Source of the DNA: Vreelandella massiliensis
GTDB lineage: Bacteria; Pseudomonadota; Gammaproteobacteria; Pseudomonadales; Halomonadaceae
NCBI RefSeq assembly: GCF_900155385.1
Contig: NZ_LT699745.1
Coordinates: 882,946 to 946,945 of the forward strand
DNA length: 64,000 nt
Direction of reading: 5' to 3'
Below the pieces are notes generated by a model. The model ran no database searches. It worked only from the letters and a program-made list of their open reading frames with translations, and was not told the origin of the DNA. Made by a program: the position numbers and the translations under genes. The first letter of the stretch is position 1, and every line of letters starts with the position of its first letter. Below are positions 9,351 to 64,000 of the stretch, piece after piece.

Positions 9351-9370
9351 TATTTTTTTCTCCCACACGA

Positions 9371-9403
9371 AAACGCCCGCTGCCATGGCAGCGGGCGTTT
9401 TTT
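9371..9403. terminator. Bidirectional intrinsic terminator between polA and the ferric-binding gene
   Basis: A 30-nt perfect inverted repeat (9371-9400) centred on CCATGG ends in six Ts on the plus strand and starts with four As, which are Ts on the minus strand. It can therefore terminate both polA and the convergent iron-binding-protein gene. Confidence 0.85.
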
Positions 9404-9438
9404 ATAGCGTTTGCGGTGCGCGCGAGGGCGCGCCGGGC

Positions 9439-10464
9439 TTAACGCCAGCCAACGCGATCGAAGATGCGGATCGCTTCAGGGTTGTTTTCACCCAGCTCGC
9501 TGATGTTCAGGTCGTCTTTCTCAAAGTTGCCCCAAGACTCCAGCACCGGGTCTTGCTTCACGCCATCCACCACCGGGAATTCGTTGTTGCCAGAGGCGAA
9601 GACTTCCTGGGCGGTGTCGGAGGCCAAGAACTCAAGGAAGCGTACGGCGTTCTCGCGGTTGGGTGCGCCTTCAACCACGCCAGCACCGCCAACGTTGACG
9701 TGCGTGCCGCGACCGTCTTGGTTGGGGAAGATAATGCCCACTTTGCGCGCGGCTTCACGGTCGGCGACATCGTCCGACTTCAGCAGGCGCACGTAGTAGT
9801 AGTGGTTGGCAACGGCCAGGTCACACTCGCCGCTGGCAACGCCGCGAATCTGATCGGTGTCACCGCCTTCCGGGTCGCGCGCCATGTTATCGACGACGCC
9901 CTGGGCCCACTCTTCTGCACCCTCTTCACCGTGATGGGCGATCATCGAGGCCAGCAGAGACTGGTTGTAAATGTTGTTGGACGAACGAATGCACACTTCG
10001 CCTTCGAACTGCGGGTCGGCCAAGTCTTCGTAGGAGCTGATCTGGCTCGGGTCGAAGTTCTCGCGGTCGTAGAAAATCACCCGCGCACGCTGGCTAAAGC
10101 CGAACCACTTGCCCTCTGGGTGGCGCATGGCTTCCGGCAGACGCTCGTTGAGGACATCCGACTCAACGCTCTGGAAAATGCCGTCTTGCTCGGCGCGCCA
10201 CAGGCGACCAGCGTCGACGGTCATCATCACGTCAGCGGGGCTGGCCACGCCTTCGCGCTGAATACGCTCGATCAGCTGATCGGAGTCGCCTTCGAGCACA
10301 TTAACCTCGATACCGGTCTCTTCGGTAAAGGCGGTGTAAAGGCGCTCGTCGGAGTCGTAGTGGCGCGCGGAGTACAAGTTGATCTCGTTGGCCAGTGCCG
10401 TGCTGGCAAAAGCGCTACCCACTAGAACGGCTGCAACGGGCGCTGCAAAACGTGCGGTTTTCAT
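9439..10464 (-). CDS. fbpA: Ferric iron ABC transporter, periplasmic Fe(III)-binding protein
   Basis: This is the periplasmic receptor of an FbpABC/FutABC-type Fe(III) importer. Starting at MKTARF (ATG 10464, GAGGAC upstream), it is 341 residues with a signal peptide cleaved near ALA-NE. Mature features typical of the class are NLYSARHYDSDE at the N-terminus and the tyrosine cluster ANHYYYVRLL, which supplies Fe(III)-binding tyrosines. An in-frame start 15 codons upstream overlaps a Fur-box-like sequence and is less likely. The ATPase gene lies divergently upstream and the permease gene 1.3 kb further on the minus strand, so the usual operon is split. Iron repression is likely. Confidence 0.9.
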   Translation of the reverse strand: MKTARFAAPVAAVLVGSAFASTALANEINLYSARHYDSDERLYTAFTEETGIEVNVLEGDSDQLIERIQREGVASPADVMMTVDAGRLWRAEQDGIFQSVESDVLNERLPEAMRHPEGKWFGFSQRARVIFYDRENFDPSQISSYEDLADPQFEGEVCIRSSNNIYNQSLLASMIAHHGEEGAEEWAQGVVDNMARDPEGGDTDQIRGVASGECDLAVANHYYYVRLLKSDDVADREAARKVGIIFPNQDGRGTHVNVGGAGVVEGAPNRENAVRFLEFLASDTAQEVFASGNNEFPVVDGVKQDPVLESWGNFEKDDLNISELGENNPEAIRIFDRVGWR

Positions 10465-48744: not shown

Positions 48745-50940
48745 TCAACTTTTGCTGGCGTAAGCGTAAAGCAGCGTTTCTTGGGCGCTGATCGGGGCGC
48801 TTTCGCCTTCCTCCTGTTTTTGGTAGCTGCCGTCGGGCTGCAAAAGCCAGCTCTGGCAGTTATCCACCAAGTAGGTCTCCAGGTCCTTGCGCACACGGGT
48901 GGCGAGCTTTTTATCCAGCAGCGGAAAGCACGTCTCCACGCGGTGGAACATGTTGCGCGACATGAAGTCGGCGCTGGAGCACCAGATTTCGGGTTTGCCG
49001 TCGTTATGGAAGTGGAAAACGCGGGTGTGCTCCAAAAAGCGGCCAATAATCGAGCGCACGCGAATGTTGTCGGAAACGCCTTCGATGCCGGGTTTTAAGC
49101 AGCACATGCCGCGAATGATGAGATCGCACTCCACGCCGGCCTGCGAGGCGCGGTAGAGCGAGCGGATCAGCTTGGGCTCGGTCAGCGAGTTGCACTTGAT
49201 GATGATATGCGCGCGCTTGCCTTTGCGCGCGTTTTGCGCCTCGCGCTCGATCATTTCGCTAAGCCGCTCGTGTAGGGTAAAAGGTGCGTGCAACAGCGTA
49301 TCGATTCGCCGCGCGCGGCCCATTCCCGAAAGCTGCTGGAAGACGCGGTGCACATCGGCGCACAGCGCCGCGTTCGCGGTAAGCAGGCTGTAGTCGGTAT
49401 AGAGCTTGGCGGTTTTGGAGTGGTAGTTGCCGGTGCCCAGATGGGCGTAGTGGCGCAGCTCGCCTTTTTCGCGGCGCACGATATGCAGCATTTTGGCGTG
49501 GGTTTTGTACGCCATGATGCCGTAAATCACGATGGCGCCGGCCTCTTGCAGGCGCGAGGCGAGCTGCAGGTTGTCGGCTTCGTCAAAGCGCGCGCGCAGC
49601 TCGATCACCACCGTGACCTCTTTGCCGTGGCTGGCGGCATCCACCAGGGCGCTGACAATCGGCGAATCGGCGCCGGTGCGGTAGAGCGTCTGTTTGATCG
49701 CCAGCACATCCGGGTCGCGTGCCGCTTCGCTGAGCAGGTCTTCGATCGGCGAGAACGACTGGAAGGGGTGGTGGAGCAGAATATCCTGCTTGCGAATGGC
49801 GTCAAACAGGCTGCCGCTTTTGAGCGCTTTGGGGATGCCCGGGGTAAAGGGGCGGTAGAGTAGCTCGGGGCGGTCGACATCGCCGAGCACGGCCATCATG
49901 CGGGTAAGGTTCACCGGCCCTTCGACGCGATAGAGGTCGTCACTCTCTAGGTGGAACTGGCGCAGCAGGAAGTCGGTAAGATCCTCGGGGCAGTTATTGG
50001 CCACTTCAAGGCGCACGCCGCTGCCGTAGCGCCGCGCCAGCAGCTCGCCGCGAAGCGCCGAGGCGAGATCCGAGACCTCTTCGGGGTCAACGGTCATATC
50101 GGCGTTGCGGGTTAAGCGAAACTGGTAGCAGCCGCGCACGCGCATGCCGGGAAAAAGCTCCTCGGCGTGGGAGTGAATCATCGACGAGAGAAACACGTAC
50201 TCCGAGAACCCCTCCTCGCAAAGCTCCTTGGGCAGCGCCATCAGCCTTGGTAGCGAGCGGGGCGCGGGCAGAATCGCCATGCCGCCGGAGCGGCCAAAGG
50301 CATCCTTGCCTTCCAGTTCGACGATAAAGTTCAGGCTCTTGTTGACCAGGCGCGGGAAGGGGTGCGACGGATCGAGCCCGATGGGGCTGATGACCGGCAT
50401 GATTTCATTGTCGAAAAACGCCCGCACCCACTTTTTTTGCGCCTCGGTCCATTGATTGCGGCGGCGAAAACGCAGCCCCTGCGCTTCTAAGGCGGGCAGG
50501 AGGGTGTCGTTGAGAATCTGGTACTGGCGGCTGATCTGCTCGTGGGCAATTTGCGAGATTTCACTCAGCACCGCCTTGGGAAGACGACCGTCCGCGCCGG
50601 TGGTATCGTCGCCGAGGGCGATTTGATGCTTGAGCCCGGCGACGCGAATCTCGAAGAACTCATCCATGTTGGAGGAGAAAATCAGCAAAAACATCAGCCG
50701 GTTGAGCAGCGGGTGGGCATCGTCTAGCGCCTGCTCAAGCACGCGAATATTAAACTGTAAGTGGGAGAGCTCGCGGTTGAAGTAAAGCTGAGGGTCGTCG
50801 AGGTCGGTCTCGGTTTGGCTCTCGCGTGCCTGAACACCGGTCGGCGTGCGATTAACCCGTAGCGGCGGCGCCTCGCTGTCGCTCAGGGTGGGGTCGTTGC
50901 CTGGGGCAGTGGGGGGTGTATCGGACGCTTGGGAATCCAT
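48745..50940 (-). CDS. ppk1: Polyphosphate kinase 1
   Basis: PPK1 polymerises the terminal phosphate of ATP into polyphosphate. The 731-residue start (ATG 50940, AAGGAGCGG upstream) is preferred to 19 further open codons. The N-terminal 50 residues are a low-complexity, acidic/Pro-rich extension. Family features are FNRELSHLQFNIRVLEQA, MDEFFEIRVAG, the autophosphorylated His region YKTHAKMLHIVRREKG and HLGTGNYHSKTAKLYTDY. A Pho-box-like sequence lies about 50 nt upstream. It is on the same strand as hemB upstream. Confidence 0.94.
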   Translation of the reverse strand: MDSQASDTPPTAPGNDPTLSDSEAPPLRVNRTPTGVQARESQTETDLDDPQLYFNRELSHLQFNIRVLEQALDDAHPLLNRLMFLLIFSSNMDEFFEIRVAGLKHQIALGDDTTGADGRLPKAVLSEISQIAHEQISRQYQILNDTLLPALEAQGLRFRRRNQWTEAQKKWVRAFFDNEIMPVISPIGLDPSHPFPRLVNKSLNFIVELEGKDAFGRSGGMAILPAPRSLPRLMALPKELCEEGFSEYVFLSSMIHSHAEELFPGMRVRGCYQFRLTRNADMTVDPEEVSDLASALRGELLARRYGSGVRLEVANNCPEDLTDFLLRQFHLESDDLYRVEGPVNLTRMMAVLGDVDRPELLYRPFTPGIPKALKSGSLFDAIRKQDILLHHPFQSFSPIEDLLSEAARDPDVLAIKQTLYRTGADSPIVSALVDAASHGKEVTVVIELRARFDEADNLQLASRLQEAGAIVIYGIMAYKTHAKMLHIVRREKGELRHYAHLGTGNYHSKTAKLYTDYSLLTANAALCADVHRVFQQLSGMGRARRIDTLLHAPFTLHERLSEMIEREAQNARKGKRAHIIIKCNSLTEPKLIRSLYRASQAGVECDLIIRGMCCLKPGIEGVSDNIRVRSIIGRFLEHTRVFHFHNDGKPEIWCSSADFMSRNMFHRVETCFPLLDKKLATRVRKDLETYLVDNCQSWLLQPDGSYQKQEEGESAPISAQETLLYAYASKS

Positions 50941-50986
50941 AACCGCTCCTTGTGAAAAATAGCGCAATACTCCCAGTATGGCGGAT

Positions 50987-51023
50987 AAAGATGACAACGC
51001 GGTGTCACCTTGTTGTCATCTTT
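50987..51023. promoter_or_regulatory. Candidate PhoB site / long inverted repeat upstream of ppk1
   Basis: A perfect 12-bp inverted repeat (AAAGATGACAAC / GTTGTCATCTTT) encloses 13 nt. Within it, TGTCA occurs at 51003 and again at 51014, the 11-bp spacing of a Pho box. A further TGTCA lies on the opposite strand at 50992-50996. Confidence 0.4.
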
Positions 51024-51058
51024 CGCTCGTGGCGTGAGCGACATCAATAAAGTGGAGG

Positions 51059-52102
<1,044 letters not shown>

Positions 52103-52178
52103 TTATCGCTTATGGCGAGTATATCAGGACCGCTGTTGGGGAGAATATGGCGGGGCATAATGAGCGGCCAATGCTCTC

Positions 52179-52207
52179 TTGTGGAGGCTGGGCAAACTGC
52201 ATAAAGT
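52179..52207 (+). promoter_or_regulatory. Candidate sigma-70 promoter for elbB
   Basis: TTGTGG (52179-52184) and TAAAGT (52202-52207) are separated by 17 bp, about 45 nt upstream of elbB. It may also drive the sensory cluster that begins 36 nt after elbB. Confidence 0.4.
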
Positions 52208-52250
52208 GAAGCGCTAATAGTGATACCGTATTAATAAAAAGGAGAACAGC

Positions 52251-52910
52251 ATGACCAAACAGGTGGCGGTAATCTTGGCCGGCTGCGGCGTTTTTGACGG
52301 CTCGGAAATTTATGAAACCACGCTGACGCTGCTGCGCCTCGATCAGCTGGGCATCGGCTATCGCTGCTTCGCGCCGGACATGGAGCAGCGTCACGTGATT
52401 AACCACATGACTCAAGAGGTTGCCGAGGGGCAACGTCGCAATGTGCTAGAAGAGTCCGCACGGCTTGCGCGTGGCGACATCAGTCCGCTCGGCGAACTCG
52501 ACGCCGATGATTTTGACGCGGTCATTGTGCCCGGTGGCTTCGGTGTGGCCAAAAACCTTTCGGACTTCGCCACCGCCGGCGATGGCATGGCGGTGATCGA
52601 GCCGCTCAAAGAGGCCTTGGCCGGGTTTCGCGACGATGCCAAGCCCATTGGGTTGATGTGTATCTCCCCGGTGATGGCCCCGCGCCTGCTGGGTGAGGGC
52701 ATTGCCGTGACCGTGGGCCACGACCCGGGCGTTTCGGGTGCGATCAGCGCCATGGGCGGGCTACACCGTAGCTGCGCCGTGGAAGATATCGTGGTGGATT
52801 ACGAGAACCGGGTGGTTTCCACGCCCGCCTATATGCTCGCCACGCGCATCAGCGAAGCCGCGACGGGGATTTTCAAGCTGGTGGACCGCATCGACGAAAT
52901 GATGGGGTAA
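52251..52910 (+). CDS. elbB: Isoprenoid biosynthesis protein ElbB (DJ-1/PfpI-like glyoxalase)
   Basis: A 219-residue DJ-1-superfamily protein. The family start VAVILAGCGVFDGSEIYE and the nucleophile elbow IGLMCISPVM, with its reactive Cys, are diagnostic; E. coli ElbB has weak glyoxalase III activity and has been linked to isoprenoid synthesis. AAGGAG lies just before the ATG. Only 36 nt without a terminator separate it from the sensory cluster, so it could head that operon; this is inference. Confidence 0.93.
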   Translation: MTKQVAVILAGCGVFDGSEIYETTLTLLRLDQLGIGYRCFAPDMEQRHVINHMTQEVAEGQRRNVLEESARLARGDISPLGELDADDFDAVIVPGGFGVAKNLSDFATAGDGMAVIEPLKEALAGFRDDAKPIGLMCISPVMAPRLLGEGIAVTVGHDPGVSGAISAMGGLHRSCAVEDIVVDYENRVVSTPAYMLATRISEAATGIFKLVDRIDEMMG

Positions 52911-52946
52911 GCCATCGGGAAGCACTGGCAAAGGAGCTGTCAGAAC

Positions 52947-53906
52947 ATGCAAATGTCGCAAAAAATGCCCTCGCCGCGGGCCATGAGGTGGGGGCTTATT
53001 CTGCTGGGCTGGCTGATGGCGTTATGGGTCACGCAGGGCCAGGCAAGCGGTGTCACCGAACCCGCCGCCCGCGTGGGTTTTGCCCAGGACACGCTGGCGA
53101 ACGACTGGCGATGGCAGCAGGTGCAAGACGTTAAGGCGGTACTTGACGACTACCCAGCGATCGAGTTCGTTCATACCAATGCCGAGGGCAGCGTGGCGCT
53201 GCAAGCGCAGCAGATTCGTCGACTCGCCGAGACGGTGGATGTGCTGATCGTTAGCCCCCGTGCGGAAGCCGTATTAAGCCAAGTGATTGCCGAGGTATAC
53301 AACGCCGGAACACCGGTCATAGTTCTCAGTAGGGGGCTTGATAATCAGCGCTTTACCAGTTTTATCAGGCCCAGCAATACGATTATCGGTCGCGCAGCGG
53401 CCCAGCATTTAACCCAGGCATTAGGCGGCGCTGGCACCATCTTGATGCTTGAGGGGTTGGAAGGGGTGAGCACGACCCAACAGCGCAGTCAAAGCTTTGC
53501 GCAGGCCTTAGCCCACTACCCCAACATAGCGCTTATCGTGAGAACCGCTAACTTCCTGCGCGTGGATGCGCTGCGTGCCGTGCAAGAGTTGATGGCAAAG
53601 GGCGTGGCGTTTGACGCCATTTATGCTCAGAGCGACAGCATGGCAGTGGGCGCGCGCATGGCCATGACAAACGCCGGCCTTGATCCATCCGCGATACCCA
53701 TCGTGGGCATTGACTACATCCAGGAAGCGCAAGAAGCCCTGCTTAACGGGACGCAGAGTGCCAGCTTCACTTACCCCACCGGAGGAGGCAAGGCGGCAGA
53801 GTTCGCGCTGCGCCTACTTCAGGGGGAGCCGGTGCCAAAACATTGGTTGCTGCCGACCGTCAAGGTCACCGCGGATAACGCTGAGGACGTGGAGCCTATT
53901 TTTTGA
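52947..53906 (+). CDS. Sugar-type periplasmic binding protein, sensor partner
   Basis: A 319-residue protein with a signal peptide ending near GQASG and a Peripla_BP_4 (RbsB/LuxP/TorT-like) domain. Two-lobe features include IRRLAETVDVLIVSPRA, AGTPVIVLSRGL, GTILMLEGLEGVSTTQQR and GVAFDAIYAQSDSMAVGA. No ABC transporter genes are nearby. The stop overlaps the start of the membrane kinase (TTGA), as in LuxP-LuxQ and TorT-TorS arrangements, so I infer that it presents a ligand to that kinase. The ligand is unknown. Confidence 0.85.
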   Translation: MQMSQKMPSPRAMRWGLILLGWLMALWVTQGQASGVTEPAARVGFAQDTLANDWRWQQVQDVKAVLDDYPAIEFVHTNAEGSVALQAQQIRRLAETVDVLIVSPRAEAVLSQVIAEVYNAGTPVIVLSRGLDNQRFTSFIRPSNTIIGRAAAQHLTQALGGAGTILMLEGLEGVSTTQQRSQSFAQALAHYPNIALIVRTANFLRVDALRAVQELMAKGVAFDAIYAQSDSMAVGARMAMTNAGLDPSAIPIVGIDYIQEAQEALLNGTQSASFTYPTGGGKAAEFALRLLQGEPVPKHWLLPTVKVTADNAEDVEPIF

Positions 53907-55741
53907 TCCGTTTCAATTCACTGGTCTTTAAACTACCTGCCCTGGTTCTAGTGACAGTGAGCGCCGCCTTGGCGCTAAGTGGCTACTTGATTGATCAGCG
54001 GCTGCTGAGCTACCACCGACAAACGGCCACGGCGTTGATGGAGGAGGGGGCGCAGCGTATTCAGGATATCATCTGGCAAACGGAATCCGAGCTTTTTGCC
54101 GAAGCGCAACGGCTTTTGCAGCACGAGCAGCTGCAGGCAACGCTTACCTTGATCAATGACTTTCAGGATAGCGAAGAGTACCAGCCTTTTGTGTTTGACC
54201 CCGAAAAACGCCTTGTGGCGGAGCAGCTGCTCAATACGGTACAAAACGGCACGTCATCGGCCGCCTTTCTGTTCGATAACCATAATGCGCTCGTTAGCTA
54301 CGCCCTCGTGGCACAAGGTCGAACGGAAGCGGGGTTTCTCAGCTATGTCGATGGCGCACCCAAATTACGGCACTACGCCTCAACCGGTGACGCCTCGCGC
54401 TTACACTACCCGGGTGATATTACCTCCTGGCGACCGCAAAATGTCTTGGGAGAGCGCTACCGCTTCGTCGGCGACCGACTTTTTCTGACCAAGTCGTACC
54501 GTAACTTCGAGTGGCAAAATAGCCTCGGAACACTCGTTATCGCGCGAGAGCTGTCGCAGGCCATGCTGCAGTCGGCACTTCCGAGTGGCGTGCATGCCTA
54601 CCTTTTTCATCCTCAGCAAAACGCCTTCATGGTGGAAGGCGAGAAGCGGCTTGTTACCCCGCGGGAGGCCTCATCGCAGTGGCAGCACGATGACGCCGGG
54701 TTCTGGCGCCCGTTTACGCCAGCCAGCCCTGAAGCCGATGGGTTCGAGGTCATGCTTCACTATCCGGCCGCGCAGTACCGTATCGAGCAGCGGGCCACGC
54801 GAGACGGGGTGATCGCCGCGGTCCTTATCACGGCGCTGCTTGTGCTGCCGATAAGCTTTTGGTTGGTGCGGCGCTTTATGGTGGTCCCTCTTGTGCAACT
54901 GATGCGCGGCGTCAATCGCATCAGTCGAGGTGACAAAGAGCCGATCGTGGTCGCTGCGCAAAACAGTGAGCTTGGCCAGCTGGCTAACGCGGTTAACGCC
55001 ATGTCGGACAAGCTGCAGCAGCGTGAGCAGCGAATTAGCCGCTATGCGAAGGAGATGGAGCGCTTGAGCCAGGTGATGGCGCACCACTTTCAAGAACCAT
55101 CGCGACGCCTTGTGCTCTTTTCACGCCAGCTGCAAAACGCTTCGTTGCCGCGTGAAGAGGACCGCCAAGCAGTGGTTTTTATTCGTGCGCAGGCCACGCG
55201 GTTAAGTGCCTTGGTGGATGGCGCCCGCCGTTACCTCGAAATATCCCGAACCTCGCCGCGCCTCGCACCGGTCGACCTTAATCAGGCACTGAAAGCGGTG
55301 TTGGCCGACCCGAAGATTCACGCGCAGATAACGCAGTGGCAAGCCGATATTCGTACCGCTGACCTTCCCGTCGTGCAGGCCGATTCAGCCCATATACACG
55401 CCTTATTCACTATTCTCGTGGATAACGCGCTGTGCTATCGTCATGCCGAGAGATTAATTATGCTTCGGCTTTGGTCTGAAGAGGATGCCGGGCAGTACCG
55501 GGTGTATGTGCAGGATAACGGGGTGGGTATTGCCCCCGAGCATCACCATCGAGTGTTCTCGCTGTTTGAGCGTTTGGTAACCGATAGTCAGGGGTATCCG
55601 GGCGTGGGCCTTGGGTTGTCCATGGCGCGCCAGATCATGCGCCAGCTAGGCGGTCGTATCGCGATTCATACCAGTAGCCCGGAGGGCACCACTTTTGTTC
55701 TGGTTTTTTACAAGGACATAAAAGATGAATCAAGCGCGTAA
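53903..55741 (+). CDS. Sensor histidine kinase with HAMP and HHFQEP-type H-box
   Basis: A 612-residue kinase starting at TTG 53903, with GGAG 8 nt upstream and overlap with the preceding stop. Membrane segments at about 10-30 and 303-324 enclose a large periplasmic sensor domain. A HAMP (about 325-375), a coiled linker and a phytochrome-type HisKA follow, with H-box MAHHFQEPSRR: phospho-acceptor His394 is followed by His395 where Asp or Glu is usual. The ATPase domain has LVDNALCYRH, DNGVGIAPE and GVGLGLSMA, so ATP binding looks intact. Translation continues into the receiver gene with a 17-nt overlap. Confidence 0.9.
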   Translation: MIRFNSLVFKLPALVLVTVSAALALSGYLIDQRLLSYHRQTATALMEEGAQRIQDIIWQTESELFAEAQRLLQHEQLQATLTLINDFQDSEEYQPFVFDPEKRLVAEQLLNTVQNGTSSAAFLFDNHNALVSYALVAQGRTEAGFLSYVDGAPKLRHYASTGDASRLHYPGDITSWRPQNVLGERYRFVGDRLFLTKSYRNFEWQNSLGTLVIARELSQAMLQSALPSGVHAYLFHPQQNAFMVEGEKRLVTPREASSQWQHDDAGFWRPFTPASPEADGFEVMLHYPAAQYRIEQRATRDGVIAAVLITALLVLPISFWLVRRFMVVPLVQLMRGVNRISRGDKEPIVVAAQNSELGQLANAVNAMSDKLQQREQRISRYAKEMERLSQVMAHHFQEPSRRLVLFSRQLQNASLPREEDRQAVVFIRAQATRLSALVDGARRYLEISRTSPRLAPVDLNQALKAVLADPKIHAQITQWQADIRTADLPVVQADSAHIHALFTILVDNALCYRHAERLIMLRLWSEEDAGQYRVYVQDNGVGIAPEHHHRVFSLFERLVTDSQGYPGVGLGLSMARQIMRQLGGRIAIHTSSPEGTTFVLVFYKDIKDESSA

Positions 55742-56153
55742 AGTGCTGCTAGTGGAGGATGATCAGGCCGATGCTTACATCACGCGGCGTATTTTTCAGG
55801 AGGTCGCCGCGGATATTCGTCTTGAGCATGCAGAGACGGGCGAAAGCGCGCTGGCATATTTGGAGGCGAACCAGCAGGCAGGCAAGGACGCTTTTCCCGC
55901 GCTTATCCTGCTGGACCTGAATATGCCCCGGATGGATGGCTTTACCTTTTTGCAGCATGCGAAACAGAGGCCGGAATTTAGCCCCATCCCCGTGGTGATT
56001 CTCACCACCTCGGTATCCCAGAGCGATATTGACCGGGCCTACGCACTAGGCGCTGCCGGTTACCTGGTGAAACCCACCGGTATCGATGAATTTAGCCAAC
56101 ACATTCAGCAGTTAACTGCGTATTGGTTTGGCTTGGTAAGGCGCCCCAGCTGA
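55725..56153 (+). CDS. Stand-alone receiver (Rcp1-like response regulator)
   Basis: A 142-residue CheY-like protein without output domain. The acidic pocket is in LLVEDDQAD, the phospho-acceptor is Asp64 in ILLDLNMPRMDG, and Lys116 is in GYLVKP. The pattern resembles Rcp1-type receivers that partner phytochrome-like kinases, which fits the HisKA type of the kinase before it. It overlaps that kinase by 17 nt. Confidence 0.92.
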   Translation: MNQARKVLLVEDDQADAYITRRIFQEVAADIRLEHAETGESALAYLEANQQAGKDAFPALILLDLNMPRMDGFTFLQHAKQRPEFSPIPVVILTTSVSQSDIDRAYALGAAGYLVKPTGIDEFSQHIQQLTAYWFGLVRRPS

Positions 56154-56181
56154 ATACAGGGATTTTTCGAAGGGTGTAACA

Positions 56182-57516
56182 ATGCAAACACTATCCGTGC
56201 TTCTGGTCGAGGACGAGCCGGGAGACGCTGAGCTTATACGCTACAGCCTGAAGTTCAGTGGCGGTCAGCACACCGTTGAGTGGGTTCAGAGCTTAGGAGA
56301 ACTACGGGCGCAGCTTGACACTGCTAAAGCACCGTTCGACGTTATTCTGCTCGATCTGAACCTGCCGGATGCCAGCGGACTTGAAACTGTCTCACGCTGC
56401 AAGGCGATGGCGCCTGATACTCCGGTTGTGGTGCTGACGGGCCACGATGATATGGACTTCTCGCTGAAAACACTGGAAGCCGGCGCGCAGGACTACCTGA
56501 TCAAAAACCGCCTAGAGGCGGATGCACTTTTGCGCGCGATGCGCTACGCCATGGAGCGTCATCAGCTGGAGCATCGCCTGCAGCAGTCGGAAGAGCTGAT
56601 GATGGCGGCGATAGAGGGCGGCGACCTGGGTGTCTGGGAGTGGAATCTCAAGACCAATGCCTGCCACAACAGCGAGCGTGTGCTCAAGACCTGTGGCTTT
56701 AGCACTGAGGACGGCGATCTGCCCGTCTCGGCGGACGAGTGGATGCAGCGCATTCACCCAGATGACATGGCTGCGTTCAACAAGGCGCTCAAGCAGCACC
56801 TTAGAGGGGAGACCAAACGCTACCAGAACGAGTTTCGCTTTCGGCACAAACAGGGGCACTGGATCTGGCTATTCGCCTCCGGTCATGTGGTGAGCTGGGA
56901 CCGGGAAGGTCATCCTGAGCGCATGGTGGGCATTCAGCAGGAGATTACCGAGCGCAAGGCCATGGAGCAGCAGCTGCGCGATTTGGCCATGCACGACCCG
57001 CTCACGGGGCTTTTGAATCGACGCAGCTTTATGAACGCCATGGACCGCGAGTATGGCCGCGTCAGGCGCCACAAGGGGTATCAGGCGGGGGTGCTGATGC
57101 TGGATATCGACCGCTTCAAGCACGTTAATGATACCTACGGCCACGCCGTGGGCGATGACATTCTCAAGGCATTTGCCCACGTGATTGCCGACCACCTGCG
57201 CGAAAACGACGTGTTTGGCCGCTTGGGCGGCGAAGAGTTTGCCATCCTGCTACCGGACACCGACCTAGACGGGAGTGGTTACGTGGCTGAAAAAGTGCGC
57301 ACCGCTATCGAGGCCATGCGCGTTGAAGGCGCCGGTCAAACAATCGCCATTACCACAAGCGTGGGGGTCGATCGGCTCTTGGCTGAGGATGAGCGCCCCG
57401 ACGGCGCGCTGGCGCGTGCCGATGCCGCGCTCTATCACGCCAAGCAAAATGGCCGCAACCGTGTCAGCCATTACGACAAGGACGTGAAAGCCGCCACCGG
57501 AACGTCGACGCCATAA
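56182..57516 (+). CDS. Receiver-PAS-GGDEF diguanylate cyclase
   Basis: A 444-residue response regulator whose output makes cyclic di-GMP. Receiver domain at 1-125 with phospho-acceptor Asp58 in ILLDLNLPDASG; PAS_3-type domain at about 137-260 (GVWEWNLKTN, WMQRIHPDDM, GHWIWLFASG); GGDEF domain at about 265-430. The active site is GGEEF (349-353), with the inhibitory I-site RxxD at Arg340-Asp343, so the cyclase is predicted active and feedback-controlled. It is the only recognisable output of the cluster. The next gene begins after its stop. Confidence 0.93.
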   Translation: MQTLSVLLVEDEPGDAELIRYSLKFSGGQHTVEWVQSLGELRAQLDTAKAPFDVILLDLNLPDASGLETVSRCKAMAPDTPVVVLTGHDDMDFSLKTLEAGAQDYLIKNRLEADALLRAMRYAMERHQLEHRLQQSEELMMAAIEGGDLGVWEWNLKTNACHNSERVLKTCGFSTEDGDLPVSADEWMQRIHPDDMAAFNKALKQHLRGETKRYQNEFRFRHKQGHWIWLFASGHVVSWDREGHPERMVGIQQEITERKAMEQQLRDLAMHDPLTGLLNRRSFMNAMDREYGRVRRHKGYQAGVLMLDIDRFKHVNDTYGHAVGDDILKAFAHVIADHLRENDVFGRLGGEEFAILLPDTDLDGSGYVAEKVRTAIEAMRVEGAGQTIAITTSVGVDRLLAEDERPDGALARADAALYHAKQNGRNRVSHYDKDVKAATGTSTP

Positions 57517-57536
57517 TGCCCGCCAAGGAGCCTATC

Positions 57537-60482
57537 ATGCTGTTGTGTACGCGCCGCACGGGGCCGAGCCGGTTGCTCCTGCTGGTCAGCCTTTGGCTAC
57601 TCAGTCTTTGGTTACCCTCCGCGTCGGCCCTGGCGACCCCAACCACGACGCTAGGGGTGTTTGCCTATCGCGACGCTGAAACGGTGCGTGAGCGGTTCGC
57701 TCCAGTGGTAGAGGCGATGCAGTGGGCCTTGCCCGGCCATCAAGTCGAGATGAGAGTGCTCTCGCTGGATGCCTTGGATGCGGCCATCGAGGCGTCAGAG
57801 ATCGACTTCATCCTGACCAACCCCCGTCACTTTCTCGCCGTTCGCCAGCGCCAAGCGGTCACCGGCGCACTGGCGTCGCTGCAAACGCAGTACAGCGGAC
57901 GCATGCTCAGCTCGCTCGCGGGGGTGATCCTCACTCGACCCGACGCTCATATCACCACGCTCGATGCCCTGGAGGGGCGACAGATCGGTGTGCCGGGCAA
58001 GCGCTTTTTAGGCGGCTTTCTGGCCCAGGCGTACGAAATCTACCGTCACGGTGAAAATCCGGAGCGCTTTGCCGAGTATATCGAACTCGGCTCCCACGAT
58101 GCGGTGATGGAAGCGCTGCTCGCCGGGGAGCTGGATGTGGGCTTTGTGCGCAGCGGCATCCTCGAAAGCTGGCGGCAACAGGGCAGGGTGGAGCGCGGCG
58201 GTTTAAAGGTTCTCTCTATTCAGAGCAACGAGCGCTTTCCCTTGGCCCACTCGACGCGACTTTACCCCGAGTGGGCGTTCGCCGCGATGATGGACGTACC
58301 CACGGAGGATGTGCGCCGAGTAACCCAGGCATTGCTGGGGCTTAAAAGCGAGCCGGTACGCTTTGACCCGCCGCACGACTATCTAAGCGTTGAAATGGCC
58401 GCGAGAGCCTTGGGGGTGGCGCCCTTTGAGCGTGAGTCGTTTTGGGAGCAGCTGCGCTACGAGTTTGGTCCTCTCTTATGGCTGGTGTTGGGCTTGGCGG
58501 CGGCGCTTTTAGCGGCAATGGCGACGCTGGCTTGGCTCTATTTTCGTCAGCGGCGCCTTTATAAGCGTGTCAAAGCGCTGTTTCATTACTCGCCGAGCCC
58601 CAAGTTGTTGCTACACCCCGAGGGCGGCACGCTGGTCATTGATGACGCCAACCAAGAGGCGGTGAACCTCTTTGGCATGGCGAGTCGAGAGAGGCTCGTG
58701 GGGCACTCTGTTATCGACCTTTCCCCCGCCACACAGCCCGACGGTGAGCCATCTCAAGTGAAGGTACGGGCACTCATGTCACCGTCCCATCCTGAGCGGC
58801 AGACCTTCCACTGGACGCACCTCACCGCGCAAGGCGAGACACTGCTCACCGAGGCCACGCTGATGCGCTTAAGCGATGTCGCCGCTTGGCGCAAAAAAGC
58901 GGTCTATATCGTGGCGCTGCGTGATATCACCCAGCAAGCGCGTTTTGAGGCGCAGCTGGTCGAGGAGCGCAACGCGCTGAAAAATATTCTCTGGGGCACC
59001 GCCGCGGGTACCTGGGAGTGGAACGTGCAGACCGGCGAAACACGCTTTAATGAGCGCTGGGCTGAGATGGTTGGGTACCGTTTGGAAGAGCTTGCGCCCA
59101 CCACCATCGACACTTGGATGACATTTTGCCACCCGGAAGACCTCAAACGCTCGGAGGCGATGCTCGCCGAGCACTTCGCCGGTAAGCGCGATGCCTATGA
59201 TATTGAAGCCCGCATGCGCCATCGAGAGGGACACTGGATATGGGTGCAGGATCGGGGGCGGGTCATCTCCCGCACCGAGGCGGGCGAGCCGCTATGGGTC
59301 GCGGGAACGCACACCGACATTACCGCACGCAAAGAGGCCGAGGCGCGCGTTAGCGCGATGGTGGCACAAATGCAAAAGCACGCGGCGCTGCTTCCCGGCA
59401 TGCTGTATCAATACTGGTATCACCCCGACGGACGTTCGGCCTTTCCCTACGCTAGCGAGGGCATCGAAGAGATTTACGGCCTAACGCCCGAGCAGGTCAG
59501 GGAGGACGCCAGCGCGGTTTATACTTTGATCGACCCCACCGATGTCGAAGCGGTGACACGCAGCATCGAGCGCTCCGCCGCCACGCTCTCGCCTTGGCGG
59601 GCGACCTATCGCGTTAATCACCCCGCCGGGTACCAGCTCTGGGTCGAGGGCATCGCCACGCCGGAGCGCTTGGAGGATGGCAGCACCATGTGGCACGGCT
59701 ACCTGCGCGATGTCACCGACGAGCACACCACACAGCTACAGCTAGAGCAGTATCGTGAATCGCTGGAGCGCTCCAACCAGGAGCTTGAGCACTTCGCCTA
59801 CGCCGCGTCGCACGATCTGCGCCAGCCGCTGCGTATGGTGACAAGCTACGCGCAGCTGCTTGAGCGGCACCTGAGCGGCCAGCTCGATGATGATGGCAAG
59901 ACCATGCTGCACTACATGCGCGATGGTGCCCAGCGCATGGATAGCATGCTGCTGTCGCTTTTGGATTACTCGCGGGTGGGCCGCAAAGGGCAGCCGATGC
60001 AGGCCATGAAGCTAAAAGACGCCCTTGATGAAGCCTTGCACTTCTTGACGCCGACCATTCAGGAGGCGGACGCCACCATCACGGTGGAGGGGGAGTGGCC
60101 ACAAGTCTTTGCCAGCCCCGATGAAATGATGCGCTTGTTCCAGAACCTGCTCAGCAATGCGGTGAAATACCGCAGCCCAGACAAAGCCACAGCGGTGAAT
60201 ATCCGCATCGAGCCAGCGCCCAGCCAGGCGCACTGGCAAGTCAGCGTGTGCGATAACGGCATCGGCATTGCGCCTGAACAGATCGATCGCTTGTTCAAGG
60301 TTTTTCAGCGCCTGCATACCCGTGAACAGTACGAGGGGAGCGGTGTGGGACTGGCCGTTTGTCGCAAGATTGTTGAGCGCCATGGCGGGCGCATCTGGAT
60401 CGAGTCCGAAGGCGAGGGCAAAGGAAGCTGCTTTGTGTTCACGCTGCCCATGACACCCACCGCCGAGGAAGCAACCCCATAA
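57537..60482 (+). CDS. Sensor histidine kinase with PhnD-like periplasmic domain and three PAS domains
   Basis: A 981-residue kinase; ATG 57537 has AAGGAG 6 nt upstream, better than the ATG at 57516. Signal peptide about 1-28; a PhnD-like (phosphonate/phosphate-binding fold) domain about 30-290, as in the tetrathionate sensor TtrS; membrane segment about 312-335; three PAS domains about 345-470, 480-605 and 610-740; a canonical HisKA with YAASHDLRQPLRM (His759) and an ATPase domain with LLSNAVKYRS, DNGIGIAPE and GSGVGLAVC. The stop overlaps the next start (TAATG). The ligand is unknown. Confidence 0.92.
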   Translation: MLLCTRRTGPSRLLLLVSLWLLSLWLPSASALATPTTTLGVFAYRDAETVRERFAPVVEAMQWALPGHQVEMRVLSLDALDAAIEASEIDFILTNPRHFLAVRQRQAVTGALASLQTQYSGRMLSSLAGVILTRPDAHITTLDALEGRQIGVPGKRFLGGFLAQAYEIYRHGENPERFAEYIELGSHDAVMEALLAGELDVGFVRSGILESWRQQGRVERGGLKVLSIQSNERFPLAHSTRLYPEWAFAAMMDVPTEDVRRVTQALLGLKSEPVRFDPPHDYLSVEMAARALGVAPFERESFWEQLRYEFGPLLWLVLGLAAALLAAMATLAWLYFRQRRLYKRVKALFHYSPSPKLLLHPEGGTLVIDDANQEAVNLFGMASRERLVGHSVIDLSPATQPDGEPSQVKVRALMSPSHPERQTFHWTHLTAQGETLLTEATLMRLSDVAAWRKKAVYIVALRDITQQARFEAQLVEERNALKNILWGTAAGTWEWNVQTGETRFNERWAEMVGYRLEELAPTTIDTWMTFCHPEDLKRSEAMLAEHFAGKRDAYDIEARMRHREGHWIWVQDRGRVISRTEAGEPLWVAGTHTDITARKEAEARVSAMVAQMQKHAALLPGMLYQYWYHPDGRSAFPYASEGIEEIYGLTPEQVREDASAVYTLIDPTDVEAVTRSIERSAATLSPWRATYRVNHPAGYQLWVEGIATPERLEDGSTMWHGYLRDVTDEHTTQLQLEQYRESLERSNQELEHFAYAASHDLRQPLRMVTSYAQLLERHLSGQLDDDGKTMLHYMRDGAQRMDSMLLSLLDYSRVGRKGQPMQAMKLKDALDEALHFLTPTIQEADATITVEGEWPQVFASPDEMMRLFQNLLSNAVKYRSPDKATAVNIRIEPAPSQAHWQVSVCDNGIGIAPEQIDRLFKVFQRLHTREQYEGSGVGLAVCRKIVERHGGRIWIESEGEGKGSCFVFTLPMTPTAEEATP

Positions 60483-61789
60483 TGCATCGCCGAATTCGTC
60501 TGCGGCCACTGTTGGCCGGTTGCGTACTTATGCTGATTCCCCTATGCAGCTGGGCGATGCCGGATTTCGAGACATTTTTTACCCATCACTCGACGCCAAT
60601 GTGGATGGTTTCGGTGGATAGCGGCGAGATATTGCGCGCCAACCTAGCCGCCCATGAGTTCTACGGTTTCGATAACCTGGAAGGCATGAAGGTTGCGCAC
60701 ATCAATATGCATACCTCCGAACAGGTCGAGCAGGAAATCCAGCAAGCGGCACAAGCCGAGCGCAACCATCTTTATTTTCGTCACCGCCTGGCTAACGGCG
60801 AAGTCAAAGTCATGGGGGTTTATACTGACCGGTTCGAGGTGGATGGGCGAGCGGTATTGATCTCGTCGCTGTACGACACCAGCAACTTCGAAAGCAGTGC
60901 CGAACGCCACTATATCGAGCGTGTCGAAGAGCAGGTTGATCTACAGACCCAGCAGCTTCAAGCTGCCAGAGCGAGAGCCGACAGGTTAGCGATCGGCGCC
61001 TCGTTGCTGCAGTTCGGGGTGATTACTGTATTGATCGTGATTTTGCTGCGCCTGCGCCGCTCGCAGCGAGAAAACCGCCGGCTGATTGATGAACTGTCGT
61101 TTCGCAACAAAGAGCTTGAGCGCCTAAGCCATGTGATGGCGCACCATTTCCAGGAGCCCGCGCGGCGCTTGGTGAGCTTCGCCCAGCAGCTAACGCGCCG
61201 GCTAAGTGATAGCGAGGATGAAACCATCCACATAGCGGTCGGCTTTATCCAAACCCAGGCCAAACGCTTGAGCGACCTTGTCAGCGACGTGCAGCGTTAC
61301 CTGGGGCTGGACAGTATTCCCCCCGCACCGGAAAACCTTGACCCGCAGGCTATCCTCGAAAGTGTGTATCAAAGCGACGCGCTACTGCGGGAGGCGCGCA
61401 CAGCGGATGCGCTCGAAATCCCCAAGCCACTGCCGAAGGTGTATGTCGACGCCAAGCAACTCACGCTGATTTTCCGGGTGCTACTGAGCAATGCCTGGCG
61501 CTATCGCCATCCTGAAAGAGCGCTTCGCATCCGCGTGACGGGGCAACGCTGCAATGAACGCGTCGAGTTGTGCGTGGAAGATAATGGCAGCGGTATCGCG
61601 CCTGAGTATCGCCAGCAAGTCTTGGATATGTTTGCCCGGCTGGTTCCCAATACACAGGCGTATCCCGGCACTGGTATGGGCCTTGCCTTGATCGTCAAAG
61701 CCCTTCGCAGCGTTAACGGCCAGGTCAAGGTAGAGGATGGCCTTGAGGGGGGCACCGCCATTGTATTCGACTTACCCGCAGCGAGGTGA
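60482..61789 (+). CDS. Sensor histidine kinase with extracytoplasmic PAS and HHFQEP-type H-box
   Basis: A 435-residue kinase. An N-terminal hydrophobic segment (about 8-26) ending in SWA looks like a signal peptide or anchor. A PAS-like domain (about 28-135: MWMVSVDSGEILRANLAA, YGFDNLEGM) lies before a membrane segment at about 172-190, so it should face the periplasm. The H-box is VMAHHFQEPARRL with His221 followed by His222, the same variant as the kinase at 53903. The ATPase domain keeps LLSNAWRYRH, DNGSGIAPE and GTGMGLALI. Its start overlaps the previous stop. Confidence 0.9.
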   Translation: MHRRIRLRPLLAGCVLMLIPLCSWAMPDFETFFTHHSTPMWMVSVDSGEILRANLAAHEFYGFDNLEGMKVAHINMHTSEQVEQEIQQAAQAERNHLYFRHRLANGEVKVMGVYTDRFEVDGRAVLISSLYDTSNFESSAERHYIERVEEQVDLQTQQLQAARARADRLAIGASLLQFGVITVLIVILLRLRRSQRENRRLIDELSFRNKELERLSHVMAHHFQEPARRLVSFAQQLTRRLSDSEDETIHIAVGFIQTQAKRLSDLVSDVQRYLGLDSIPPAPENLDPQAILESVYQSDALLREARTADALEIPKPLPKVYVDAKQLTLIFRVLLSNAWRYRHPERALRIRVTGQRCNERVELCVEDNGSGIAPEYRQQVLDMFARLVPNTQAYPGTGMGLALIVKALRSVNGQVKVEDGLEGGTAIVFDLPAAR

Positions 61790-61792
61790 GGT

Positions 61793-62233
61793 ATGCCAGA
61801 ACCCCAAAATCTGTTTAACGTGTTACTCGTGGAGGATGAACCGGCCGATGTCCATTTGACCAAAATGGCGTTTAAGGAGGGTCGCTTGCTGGTCAACGTG
61901 CACAGCGTGGGCGATGGCGTCGAAGCGCTGGCGTACCTGCAGCGTGAAGGCGAGTACCGCGACGCCCCGAAACCAGAGCTTATTCTGCTCGATCTGAACA
62001 TGCCGCGGATGGGGGGGAAGGCGTTTCTTGAGCATTTCAAGAAGCTCGAAAAGCTAAGCCGCATCCCCGTGGTGGTGTTAACCACCTCCGAGGCCGAGCG
62101 AGATATCCTGGAGTCCTACGACCTCGGGGCTTCGGGGTTTATCGTCAAGCCGGTGGATGTGGATCAGTTCATCGCCGCTATCAACACACTGGGCGATTAC
62201 TGGCTAGCGCTGGTCAAGCAGCCGCGCACGTAA
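61793..62233 (+). CDS. Stand-alone receiver (Rcp1-like response regulator)
   Basis: A 146-residue CheY-like protein, a paralogue of the one at 55725. Asp67 in ILLDLNMPRMGG is the phospho-acceptor, and a Lys in GFIVKPVDV completes the site. No output domain follows. GAGGTGAGG lies before the ATG, 4 nt after the kinase stop. It ends the cluster, 32 nt from the convergent tatC; I see no hairpin terminator between them. Confidence 0.92.
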   Translation: MPEPQNLFNVLLVEDEPADVHLTKMAFKEGRLLVNVHSVGDGVEALAYLQREGEYRDAPKPELILLDLNMPRMGGKAFLEHFKKLEKLSRIPVVVLTTSEAERDILESYDLGASGFIVKPVDVDQFIAAINTLGDYWLALVKQPRT

Positions 62234-62265
62234 AGGCCGCTACTTGCCAGCACGAAAAAGTGGGC

Positions 62266-63051
62266 TTAGTTACTGCCTTCTGAGGCGTCCTCCGCCTCTT
62301 GGCGTTTTTTCCTGCGGACTAAGCGCCCAAACAGTAGGCCGACTTCGTACAGCAGGTACATTGGCACGGCGAGCAGGCTTTGCGACACCACATCGGGCGG
62401 GGTGAGGAGCATACCGATCACAAAGCACGCCAAGACGATGTAAGGGCGCTTTTTCGACAGGCTCTCGACGGTGGTGGCGCCGGACAGGATCAGCAAGAAA
62501 GTGGCGATGGGGATTTCAAAGGCGATACCAAAGGCAAAAAAGAGCTTCAGCACGAAGTTCAAGTACTGGTTGATATCGGTCATGACCGTGATGTTTTCCG
62601 GCCCGGTCTGGGTGAAAAACGCAAACAAGAGCGGGAACACCACATAGTAGGCAAAGGCGGCACCGGCATAAAAAAGCCCCACGCTTGAGGCCAGAATGGG
62701 TATCGCCAGGGCTTTTTCGTTGTCGTAAAGCCCAGGGGCCACAAACGCCCACGCCTGATGGAGAATAAACGGCACCGAAATAAACACGGCCACCACCAGC
62801 GTCAGCTTAAAGGGCGCGAGAAAAGGCGAGGCCACCTCGGTGGCGATCATCTGCGAGCCTTCCGGCAGCAGCGCCATAAGCGGCTGGGCGACAAAGGTGT
62901 AGATATCGTTGGCAAACGCGTAGAGACCGAGAAAAATGACCAGCACCACGATCACCGCGCGCATCAACCGCGAGCGCAGCTCAATCAAGTGCTCGATTAA
63001 CGGGGCTTGGGCCTGCTGAGGGTTCTGCTCCGAGGAGTCGCCGTTGCTCAT
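62266..63051 (-). CDS. tatC: Twin-arginine translocase subunit TatC
   Basis: A 261-residue six-helix inner-membrane protein that recognises twin-arginine signal peptides. Conserved elements are LIEHLIELRSRLMR at the N-terminus and YFVVFPLLFAFF-type and FGIAFEIPIATFLL segments. The start overlaps the tatB stop (ATGA). The C-terminal tail is Lys/Arg/Glu-rich and cytoplasmic. Confidence 0.96.
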   Translation of the reverse strand: MSNGDSSEQNPQQAQAPLIEHLIELRSRLMRAVIVVLVIFLGLYAFANDIYTFVAQPLMALLPEGSQMIATEVASPFLAPFKLTLVVAVFISVPFILHQAWAFVAPGLYDNEKALAIPILASSVGLFYAGAAFAYYVVFPLLFAFFTQTGPENITVMTDINQYLNFVLKLFFAFGIAFEIPIATFLLILSGATTVESLSKKRPYIVLACFVIGMLLTPPDVVSQSLLAVPMYLLYEVGLLFGRLVRRKKRQEAEDASEGSN

Positions 63052-63497
63052 CGCTGTTCTTCGTCCTTTTGAGAGTGAGCCTTTTGAGAAGAATCCGGTT
63101 GAGCCCCGTCCTGCCGAGCCGATGAGGACGCGTCGGGCGATGCGGACGTGGCATCTTCACGCACGGTGTTCAGCGCATCGTCTAGCCGCGCCGTGGCGTC
63201 CGCTAACGTCCGCTCCTCTTTTTTAGAGGCCGGCGGGGTCTCCGCCAGGCTTTCCACGTCCTGTTTGGCTTTATTCAGGCTGTCGTCGAGCGACTTCTGC
63301 TGCTCGTTGAGTTTTTGCCTTAGCTCTTCGGCCTCGAGTTGGGCGCTGATTTCGCGCTGCATGCCCGATACCGTGCGCTTGATCTTGCCCACCCAAAGCC
63401 CCGCTGTTCGGGCGGCACGCGGTAGGCGTTCGGGGCCGAGCACTAAAAGCCCGACCACCGCAATGATCAACAGTTCGAGAAAGCCGATATCCAGCAT
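63048..63497 (-). CDS. tatB: Sec-independent translocase protein TatB
   Basis: A 149-residue protein with one N-terminal membrane helix (DIGFLELLIIAVVGLLVLGP), the conserved ERLPRAARTAG stretch and a long amphipathic helix, then a low-complexity charged tail rich in Ser, Asp and Gln. It couples TatC to TatA. It lies 3 nt after tatA and overlaps tatC. Confidence 0.94.
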   Translation of the reverse strand: MLDIGFLELLIIAVVGLLVLGPERLPRAARTAGLWVGKIKRTVSGMQREISAQLEAEELRQKLNEQQKSLDDSLNKAKQDVESLAETPPASKKEERTLADATARLDDALNTVREDATSASPDASSSARQDGAQPDSSQKAHSQKDEEQR

Positions 63498-63500
63498 GGC

Positions 63501-63770
63501 TTATTTGCGCTCGTCGCTTTGTTCAGCCTGTTTCTCTTTGGCCTGAACATCGTAGGTATTGCCGCTCTCTTCGTGGCTGACTTTCGCCTGGGGGGAGTCA
63601 GCGTCTTTGTCTTTATCGCCCTCTTTCTCTTCTTCATGGATGGCTTTCTTGAAGCCCTTGACCGCGCCACCCAAGTCGGTGCCCACGTTGCGCAATTTTT
63701 TGGTGCCGAAAATCAGGATAATGATCCCCAGAACAATCAGCAGCTGCCAAATACTGATACCACCTAACAT
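63501..63770 (-). CDS. tatA: Sec-independent translocase protein TatA
   Basis: An 89-residue pore-forming subunit from MLGGISIWQ (ATG 63770, GAGG upstream); the open frame continues seven codons further without need. After the membrane helix come [21 protein letters not shown], the family signature, and an unusually acidic/Lys-rich tail, as expected in a halophile. Confidence 0.95.
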
Positions 63771-63826
63771 ATGCGTGTCCTCGTTTTGCATGCGACAAGG
63801 GAATCTTGCGCGGTGTAAAAGCTTTT

Positions 63827-64000
63827 TTATGTGTGTTGACGGGCGGCTTTTTCGTCGTGGCCCGACATCCCAAAGCGGCGCGCCAGTTCATCCAGTACGC
63901 CTTGGTGATCCAACCCCAAGTGGGAGAGCATCACCAAGCTATGAAACCACAGATCGGCGGTTTCAGCGATAAGCGCTTGGCGTTTCGTGTCATCGCCCTG
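63827..64000 (-). CDS. hisE: Phosphoribosyl-ATP pyrophosphatase, 3' part
   Basis: Fifty-seven codons run in from the right edge to TAA 63827-63829. [20 protein letters not shown] and [20 protein letters not shown] match the C-terminal helices of HisE, which hydrolyses phosphoribosyl-ATP in histidine synthesis. It precedes tatABC on the same strand, a common order in this group. The N-terminus is outside the window. Confidence 0.93.

Follow-up and report, generated by a model that had tools for sequence, protein, structure and literature searches.

A recurrent and mobile seven-gene signalling cluster around a diguanylate cyclase in Vreelandella massiliensis, with two sensors of the DrBphP transmitter type

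The genes and their sensory domains

The subject of this report is a signalling cluster in Vreelandella massiliensis, seven consecutive open reading frames (ORFs), here called A to G, which all lie on the forward strand between positions 52947 and 62233 of a 64,000-nucleotide stretch of DNA, the window. The ORF list and a Pfam domain search of the seven proteins (E up to 0.01) confirmed the genes, coordinates and domains that a first-pass annotation of the window had listed. The genes are tightly packed. A and B overlap by 4 bases, B and C by 17, and D/E and E/F by a single base each, and there are gaps of 28 bases between C and D and of 3 bases between F and G.

52947..53906, + strand: A, free sugar-type periplasmic binding protein (Pfam Peripla_BP_4, 9e-37)
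53903..55741, + strand: B, membrane sensor with a DrBphP-type transmitter, predicted to be phosphatase-only (Pfam HAMP and HATPase_c)
55082..55099, + strand: H-box of B, HHFQEP, with His394 followed by His at H+1, Glu at H+4 and Arg at H+7
55725..56153, + strand: C, single-domain receiver of the DrRR/Rcp1 class (match to PDB 6xvu)
56182..57516, + strand: D, receiver-PAS-GGDEF diguanylate cyclase (Pfam receiver, PAS_3 and GGDEF), supported as the hub of the cluster by gene neighbourhoods
57226..57240, + strand: active-site motif GGEEF of D
57516..60482, + strand: E, PhnD/TtrS-like outer domain, PAS domains and a canonical histidine kinase (Pfam Phosphonate-bd, PAS, HisKA and HATPase_c)
59811..59828, + strand: H-box of E, HDLRQP (His766), with the N-box Asn present
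60482..61789, + strand: F, signal peptide or transmembrane segment, PAS-like domain, transmembrane segment and a DrBphP-type transmitter, predicted to be phosphatase-only
61142..61159, + strand: H-box of F, HHFQEP (His221)
61793..62233, + strand: G, single-domain receiver of the phytochrome-receiver class

The cyclase D has an intact GGEEF motif with an RxxD motif five residues upstream of it. With its intact receiver and its GG(D/E)EF motif it fits, as judged by motifs only, a response-regulator cyclase of the PleD/WspR type. The receiver Asp is kept in C, D and G. In F the Pfam search gave HATPase_c and a PAS match below the cut-off, and the order of its outer segments is our own reading of the topology. 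Neither B nor F matched HisKA in this search, and no Hpt domain and no DNA-binding domain was found in any of the seven proteins. No sigma-70-like promoter site was seen in 52200-62500 as compared to 3.4 in shuffled sequences, which is uninformative, and Rfam at gathering scores had no match in 50000-64000.

The closest solved structure to A is 2x7x (E 5.9e-33), labelled 'SENSOR PROTEIN', a fructose sensor. By our reading B has about 270 residues between two hydrophobic segments. The AlphaFold model of B reached a pLDDT of 72 and a pTM of 0.46, and the Foldseek and VIA matches shown were filled by its kinase half; the model of F reached a pLDDT of 69. A Cache domain was not matched in four members of the B family at E up to 5. 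E matches the NCBIfam model of TtrS with 166.5 bits, best over the stretch 44-352, but the equivalog cut-off of 750 is not reached, and the transmitter and PAS domains of E differ from those of TtrS.

The same inputs are found in other surroundings. In three genomes of another genus (L046-L048) a homologue of A, 38-42% identical, adjoins a B-like sensor that ends in GGDEF-EAL. The front half of this sensor is B-like with an hhalign probability of 99.6, and the part beyond HAMP is probably not homologous; a single pair compared directly gave 29% identity over residues 3-158 (E 2e-11). Residues 10-193 of F match the start of a hybrid kinase of 1196 residues with receivers and GGDEF (36%, E 3e-30), and the F-type sensor sits on such a GGDEF hybrid in three genomes of two genera (L153, L154, L155). 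The A/B input and the F sensor thus both occur together with cyclic di-GMP domains in other proteins of the family, and by analogy this supports the first-pass view of inputs that converge on cyclic di-GMP. According to the available text of the review PMC8846402, only in exceptional cases has the binding of a stimulus to a kinase of a cyclic di-GMP network been demonstrated directly. As a separate observation, the PAS-kinase-three receivers-GGDEF hybrid of L153, L154 and L155 has in each case another hybrid kinase next to it, one that carries an Hpt domain.

Two classes of transmitter and receiver

E has the only canonical kinase site in the cluster, with the H-box HDLRQP and a normal N-box. 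In B and F the H-box reads AHHFQEPxR and the N-box Asn is lost, with Ile in its place in B and Val in F; both retain the ATP-binding motif DNGxGI. From 29 loci and the window we aligned those proteins with a match to the expression [AST][HST]?H[HD][FLM]xxPxR whose sequence extended over the N-box. The set came to 57 proteins from 25 loci including the window, with identical segments counted once and four short fragments of locus L133 excluded. H+1 and H+7 are fixed by the search expression, and the free read-outs are H+4 and the N-box only. All 31 proteins with His at H+1 (HH-type) have Glu at H+4, have lost the first N-box Asn and keep the second. The residue in place of the lost Asn varies (Ile in eight, Ala in eight, Val in seven, Leu in four, Gln in two, Glu and Phe in one each). 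The HD-type proteins, by comparison, have Gln at H+4 and keep both Asn in 26 of 26 cases.

Transmitters of the same type also resemble one another along the DHp domain. B and F are 56% identical there, and E is 68% identical to H, a PAS-PAS kinase which follows G as an eighth gene in several relatives, as compared to 19-24% across the types. Against the PDB sequences, both B and F had 8f71 as first match, followed by 8sgk/8avv, labelled bacteriophytochrome (E 8e-21 for B). The closest PDB sequence to the transmitter of E is also 8f71, named RpBphP2, at E 1.4e-47. The printed alignments pair HHFQEP of B and F with HHMQEP of 8sgk/8avv, which from the residues printed we take to be DrBphP. At a constant offset of 14, the His, His, Glu, Arg and His of 8sgk/8avv correspond to His532, His533, Glu536, Arg539 and His648 in the available text of PMC8292422. 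The phytochrome light-sensing module that marks bacteriophytochromes was not found by Pfam in B or F.

DrBphP is described in the available text of PMC8292422 as having no kinase activity and as dephosphorylating its receiver DrRR, and the Deinococcus phytochrome is classed as a phosphatase in that of PMC12471899. DrBphP carries His at H+1, Glu at H+4, Arg at H+7 and a His in the N-box, and its H+4 Glu is important for dephosphorylation (PMC8292422). In the same source, histidine kinases with His at H+1 are described as very rare and as not conserving the N-box Asn, and the H+1 His substitution D529H is reported to inactivate the kinase Agp1. The DrBphP signature suggests that B and F are phosphatase-only proteins, able to remove phosphate but not to supply it. 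The first-pass annotation had counted three kinases in the cluster, a number that is not supported, E being the only one with a canonical site. Counting 'kinases' by domain name in gene clusters can invert the sign of an input.

The receivers fall into classes in a similar way. C has its best PDB match in 6xvu (E 2.4e-30), the structure of DrRR (PMC8292422), and G matches, in this order, 5te9, 5ic5, RcpA, AtRR1 (5brj), Rcp1 and then DrRR (6xvu, at 8e-22). The receiver of D matches another set of PDB entries. C and G are 45% identical to each other, and either is 31-32% identical to the receiver of D. Together with the DHp identities this gives two transmitter classes and two receiver classes. 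A DrRR-class receiver adjoins each DrBphP-type transmitter of the cluster; for C, DrRR itself is the best match, and for G other members of the class score higher.

Co-inheritance and mobility of the cluster

The genus sample consisted of 82 genomes, searched at E<=1e-90 for D, E<=1e-50 for F and E<=1e-40 for A. D was found in 22 copies in 18 of the genomes and A in six copies in five. There were 16 F loci in 15 genomes (from 20 matches, four being the second part of a gene already counted), and six B loci, counting full proteins or large pieces, in five genomes; the other matches of B were F-type transmitters. Above these thresholds every F locus (16/16), every copy of A (6/6) and every B locus (6/6) sits in a D cluster, and D is also found without A, B or F. 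Under independent presence, and with kinship of the genomes ignored, the genome counts have a chance of 8e-14 for F; for A and for B it is 3e-4. The DNA pattern HH[FL]QEP gave 25 matches in the same genomes and one in the reversed control. D-cluster proteins account for 22 of the 25, and the other three are out of frame of any ORF of at least 50 amino acids. Here His at H+1 marks a lineage, 31 members of which were aligned. Within the genus its proteins were met only next to a diguanylate cyclase, in clusters that also contain a canonical kinase and a receiver of the DrRR class.

The composition of the clusters varies around D. Halomonas salicampi (L032/L139) has the full ABCDEFG order plus H. 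The set D-E-F-G accompanies 16 of the 22 D copies, with E broken in L133 and giving no match to the PhnD part in L134, L148, L149 and L150; in these last four the E homologues still place a kinase beside D. A-B-C-D is found with the extra kinase H in L136, and in L142 with the contig ending within E. L144 has A and D, L143 has D alone, and L151 and L152 are broken. G lies directly behind F in all 16 F loci of the genus and C lies behind B in five of six B loci, the exception being L150. The gene order is conserved across lineages that are about 50-76% identical.

The recurrence of the full order and of its sub-sets around D is more than chance, and two modules, A-B-C and E-F-G, can be told apart that attach separately to the one cyclase. 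These results support the seven genes as one evolving unit with the diguanylate cyclase D as its hub, in agreement with the first-pass annotation, which had suggested that the inputs may funnel into the cyclase. Independent assortment of the genes, named there as evidence against this, is not seen. A, B and F were never found away from D in the genus, and it is only in the sense that A-B-C or E-F-G can each be absent that the genes come apart. In some loci the absence of A-B is probably secondary. L141, at the same place as L035, has a short piece like the end of B upstream of C, and L087 and L140 have ORFs upstream of C which in our reading of the translations are transposase-like. In L145 a GTP cyclohydrolase II gene (8424-9059) lies directly upstream of D; GTP is the substrate of D, and the neighbourhood is probably a coincidence.

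In the window the cluster is flanked by elbB and tatC, with borders at 52911-52946 and 62234-62265. elbB was found in 80 of the 82 genomes, and 30 loci were examined. In 28 of the 29 loci other than the window elbB and tatC are adjacent, about 80-155 bases apart, and the remaining one is at a contig edge. This implies that the cluster of the window entered the genome between these two genes by insertion. A second cluster, C-D-E-F-G-H, is present in the same genome (C2:469464-477590; L087 7465-15591); its genes C to G share 64-70% identity with their counterparts in the window, and the transposase-like ORFs lie where A-B would stand. Trees of D and F put the second copy together with H. salicampi and V. 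arcis and leave the copy of the window outside that group. A recent duplication of the window copy is disfavoured by this placement, and acquisition or an old duplication fits the two copies better.

Relatives were also found outside the genus. In two further genera (L088, L089) an HD-kinase, an HH-protein, a receiver and a D-like protein occur together, with different sensors on the kinases. The D-like protein is REC-PAS-GGDEF in L089 and is recognised in L088 by similarity along D only, and in the D tree both are on long separate branches. A class-wide search with B matched 6 of 274 genomes at E 1e-30, and in the five other than its own the match was confined to the transmitter. A transmitter with AHHLMEPSRRL in another family of the class (L157 1483-3618) indicates that the HH class extends beyond the family and these clusters. 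Two neighbouring proteins may be mentioned here: a receiver-PAS-GGDEF-EAL-CZB protein (CZB being the chemoreceptor zinc-binding domain) inside a related cluster (L045 11013-13532), and a receiver fused to ankyrin repeats directly behind a D-like gene (L043 6323-6979).

A proposed direction of the signals

We propose, with moderate confidence, that the cluster is a mobile multi-input control unit in which the kinase E would drive the cyclase D, and the ligand-gated phosphatases B and F would drain phosphate together with their receivers C and G. Binding of a solute at the PhnD/TtrS-like domain would lead to autophosphorylation of E, and phosphorylation of D by E would raise cyclic di-GMP. E would probably phosphorylate C and G too, for which the phosphorylation of DrRR by Agp1 (PMC8292422) is a precedent, a canonical kinase serving a DrRR-type receiver. 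B would be gated by A with a sugar-like ligand, and F by the PAS-like domain on its outer side. Neither would supply phosphate; both would strip it, in the first place from C~P and G~P. C/B and G/F may then act as ligand-controlled drains or adaptors on the flow from E to D, and two of the three inputs would subtract from the signal. The sign of the inputs through B and F is, from their sequence signature, probably negative. More tentatively, the cluster might be a subtractive integrator, with phosphatase-only inputs, each with a receiver as drain, tuned against one kinase to set one diguanylate cyclase, a transferable device that retains its cyclase as input modules are exchanged or dropped. 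If true, such an integrator would give pairs of the DrBphP-DrRR type their missing kinase and output context. With seven co-encoded proteins, the purpose of phosphatase-only sensors and the source of the phosphate on their receivers become testable.

Several observations weigh against this proposal. In the available text of PMC8292422, Glu at H+4 gave Agp1 no phosphatase activity, so the residues alone do not fix the activity, and DrBphP did not dephosphorylate AtRR1, a related receiver. Gln at H+4 left the phosphatase activity of DrBphP intact in the same work, so E, which has Gln there, may be bifunctional. The DHp identity of B and F to E is as low as given above and the receiver of D is outside the class of C and G. 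This split, together with the inactivity of DrBphP on AtRR1, implies that E may not serve C and G and that B and F may not touch D. If E serves D alone, C and G are left without a kinase inside the unit of the window. In four loci (L087, L134, L140, L141) C is retained next to D, and of B there is nothing or only a remnant. Outside the genus a receiver-like ORF lies directly behind the HH protein in 8 of 12 cases only, and an AHHFQEP transmitter in L091 (G026, 8997-10310) has no relative of D or of the receivers within the 12.3 kb examined, which reach the end of the contig.

A different explanation is that the mobile cluster brings together three two-component pairs that are largely insulated from one another. 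E, with H where present, would then control D and cyclic di-GMP, and B-C and F-G would act on other targets through contacts of their receivers. The segregation of transmitters and receivers into two classes each, the constant place of G behind F and of C behind B in all but one locus, and the top NCBIfam match of C, the exopolysaccharide regulator EpsW (51.5 as compared to a cut-off of 200), all agree with this. Against it, no orthologue of A, B or F was found away from D in the 82 genomes; the A/B and F sensors moreover occur elsewhere in proteins with cyclic di-GMP domains. We find this explanation unlikely, though by no means far-fetched.

It is also conceivable that B and F have no catalytic activity and serve as scaffolds, comparable to the pseudokinase DivL; with C~P and G~P bound, they would change the behaviour of E or D through direct contact. 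Their kinase site is lost, DivL (4q20) is among the structure matches of the B model and the sequence matches of B and F, and receiver-only proteins that bind and modulate kinases have been described (PMC12471899). On the other hand, the H+4 Glu and the second N-box Asn are kept in 31 of 31 HH-type proteins and the DNGxGI motif in B and F, and we regard the scaffold role as improbable.

The phosphorelay into D suggested by the first-pass annotation, with three active kinases and two shuttle receivers, agrees with the gene order and the co-inheritance, but we give it very little credence, as two of its kinases bear the phosphatase-only signature. In a phosphorelay a receiver passes its phosphate on through a histidine step, and with no Hpt protein or hybrid kinase in the cluster (Hpt elsewhere in the genome was not looked for) no classical phosphorelay is visible. 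That mobile elements merely carried the genes together without a joint function is equally hard to believe: the variable composition, the insertion at elbB-tatC, the transposase-like ORFs beside the second copy and the broken copies L133, L151 and L152 would fit, but not the conserved order across diverged lineages, the translational overlaps, or the matching set of four genes in two further genera, whose D-like proteins belong to a different lineage.

In comparison with known systems the cluster is a variant of known two-component logic, real, recurrent and mobile, and partly misread at first. We found no description of this layout in published titles and abstracts, a search which left most subscription journals outside. 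The genes of DivJ-PleC-DivK-PleD in Caulobacter are not known to lie in one cluster. The proposed control by E, B and F appears closer by analogy to the kinase/phosphatase logic of that system than to a phosphorelay. There too a receiver-GGDEF cyclase works together with a single-domain receiver and with sensors of both kinase and phosphatase type, but PleC is bifunctional (PMC10790692, available text), whereas the phosphatase-like proteins here are without a kinase site and come each with a receiver and an outer sensor of their own. With DrBphP-DrRR of Deinococcus radiodurans (PMC8292422) the cluster shares His at H+1, Glu at H+4, Arg at H+7, the loss of the N-box Asn and a receiver-only partner of the same class; it differs in having no light-sensing module, in having two such proteins beside a canonical kinase and a cyclase, and in inputs that look periplasmic.

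The A/B pair resembles LuxP-LuxQ in that the gene of a sugar-type binding protein adjoins that of a membrane sensor. In LuxP-LuxQ and NspS-MbaA a free binding protein is encoded beside the membrane sensor that it is thought to gate, and NspS-MbaA acts on cyclic di-GMP. B differs in carrying neither the receiver of a hybrid kinase nor a GGDEF domain. AsrK-AsrR of Vibrio furnissii also links an external ligand and a membrane kinase to a response regulator that alters cyclic di-GMP, but with one kinase and one regulator, the latter with phosphodiesterase activity (PMC11796354, available text). Another, different cyclase has been described in Halomonas (PMC12421958).

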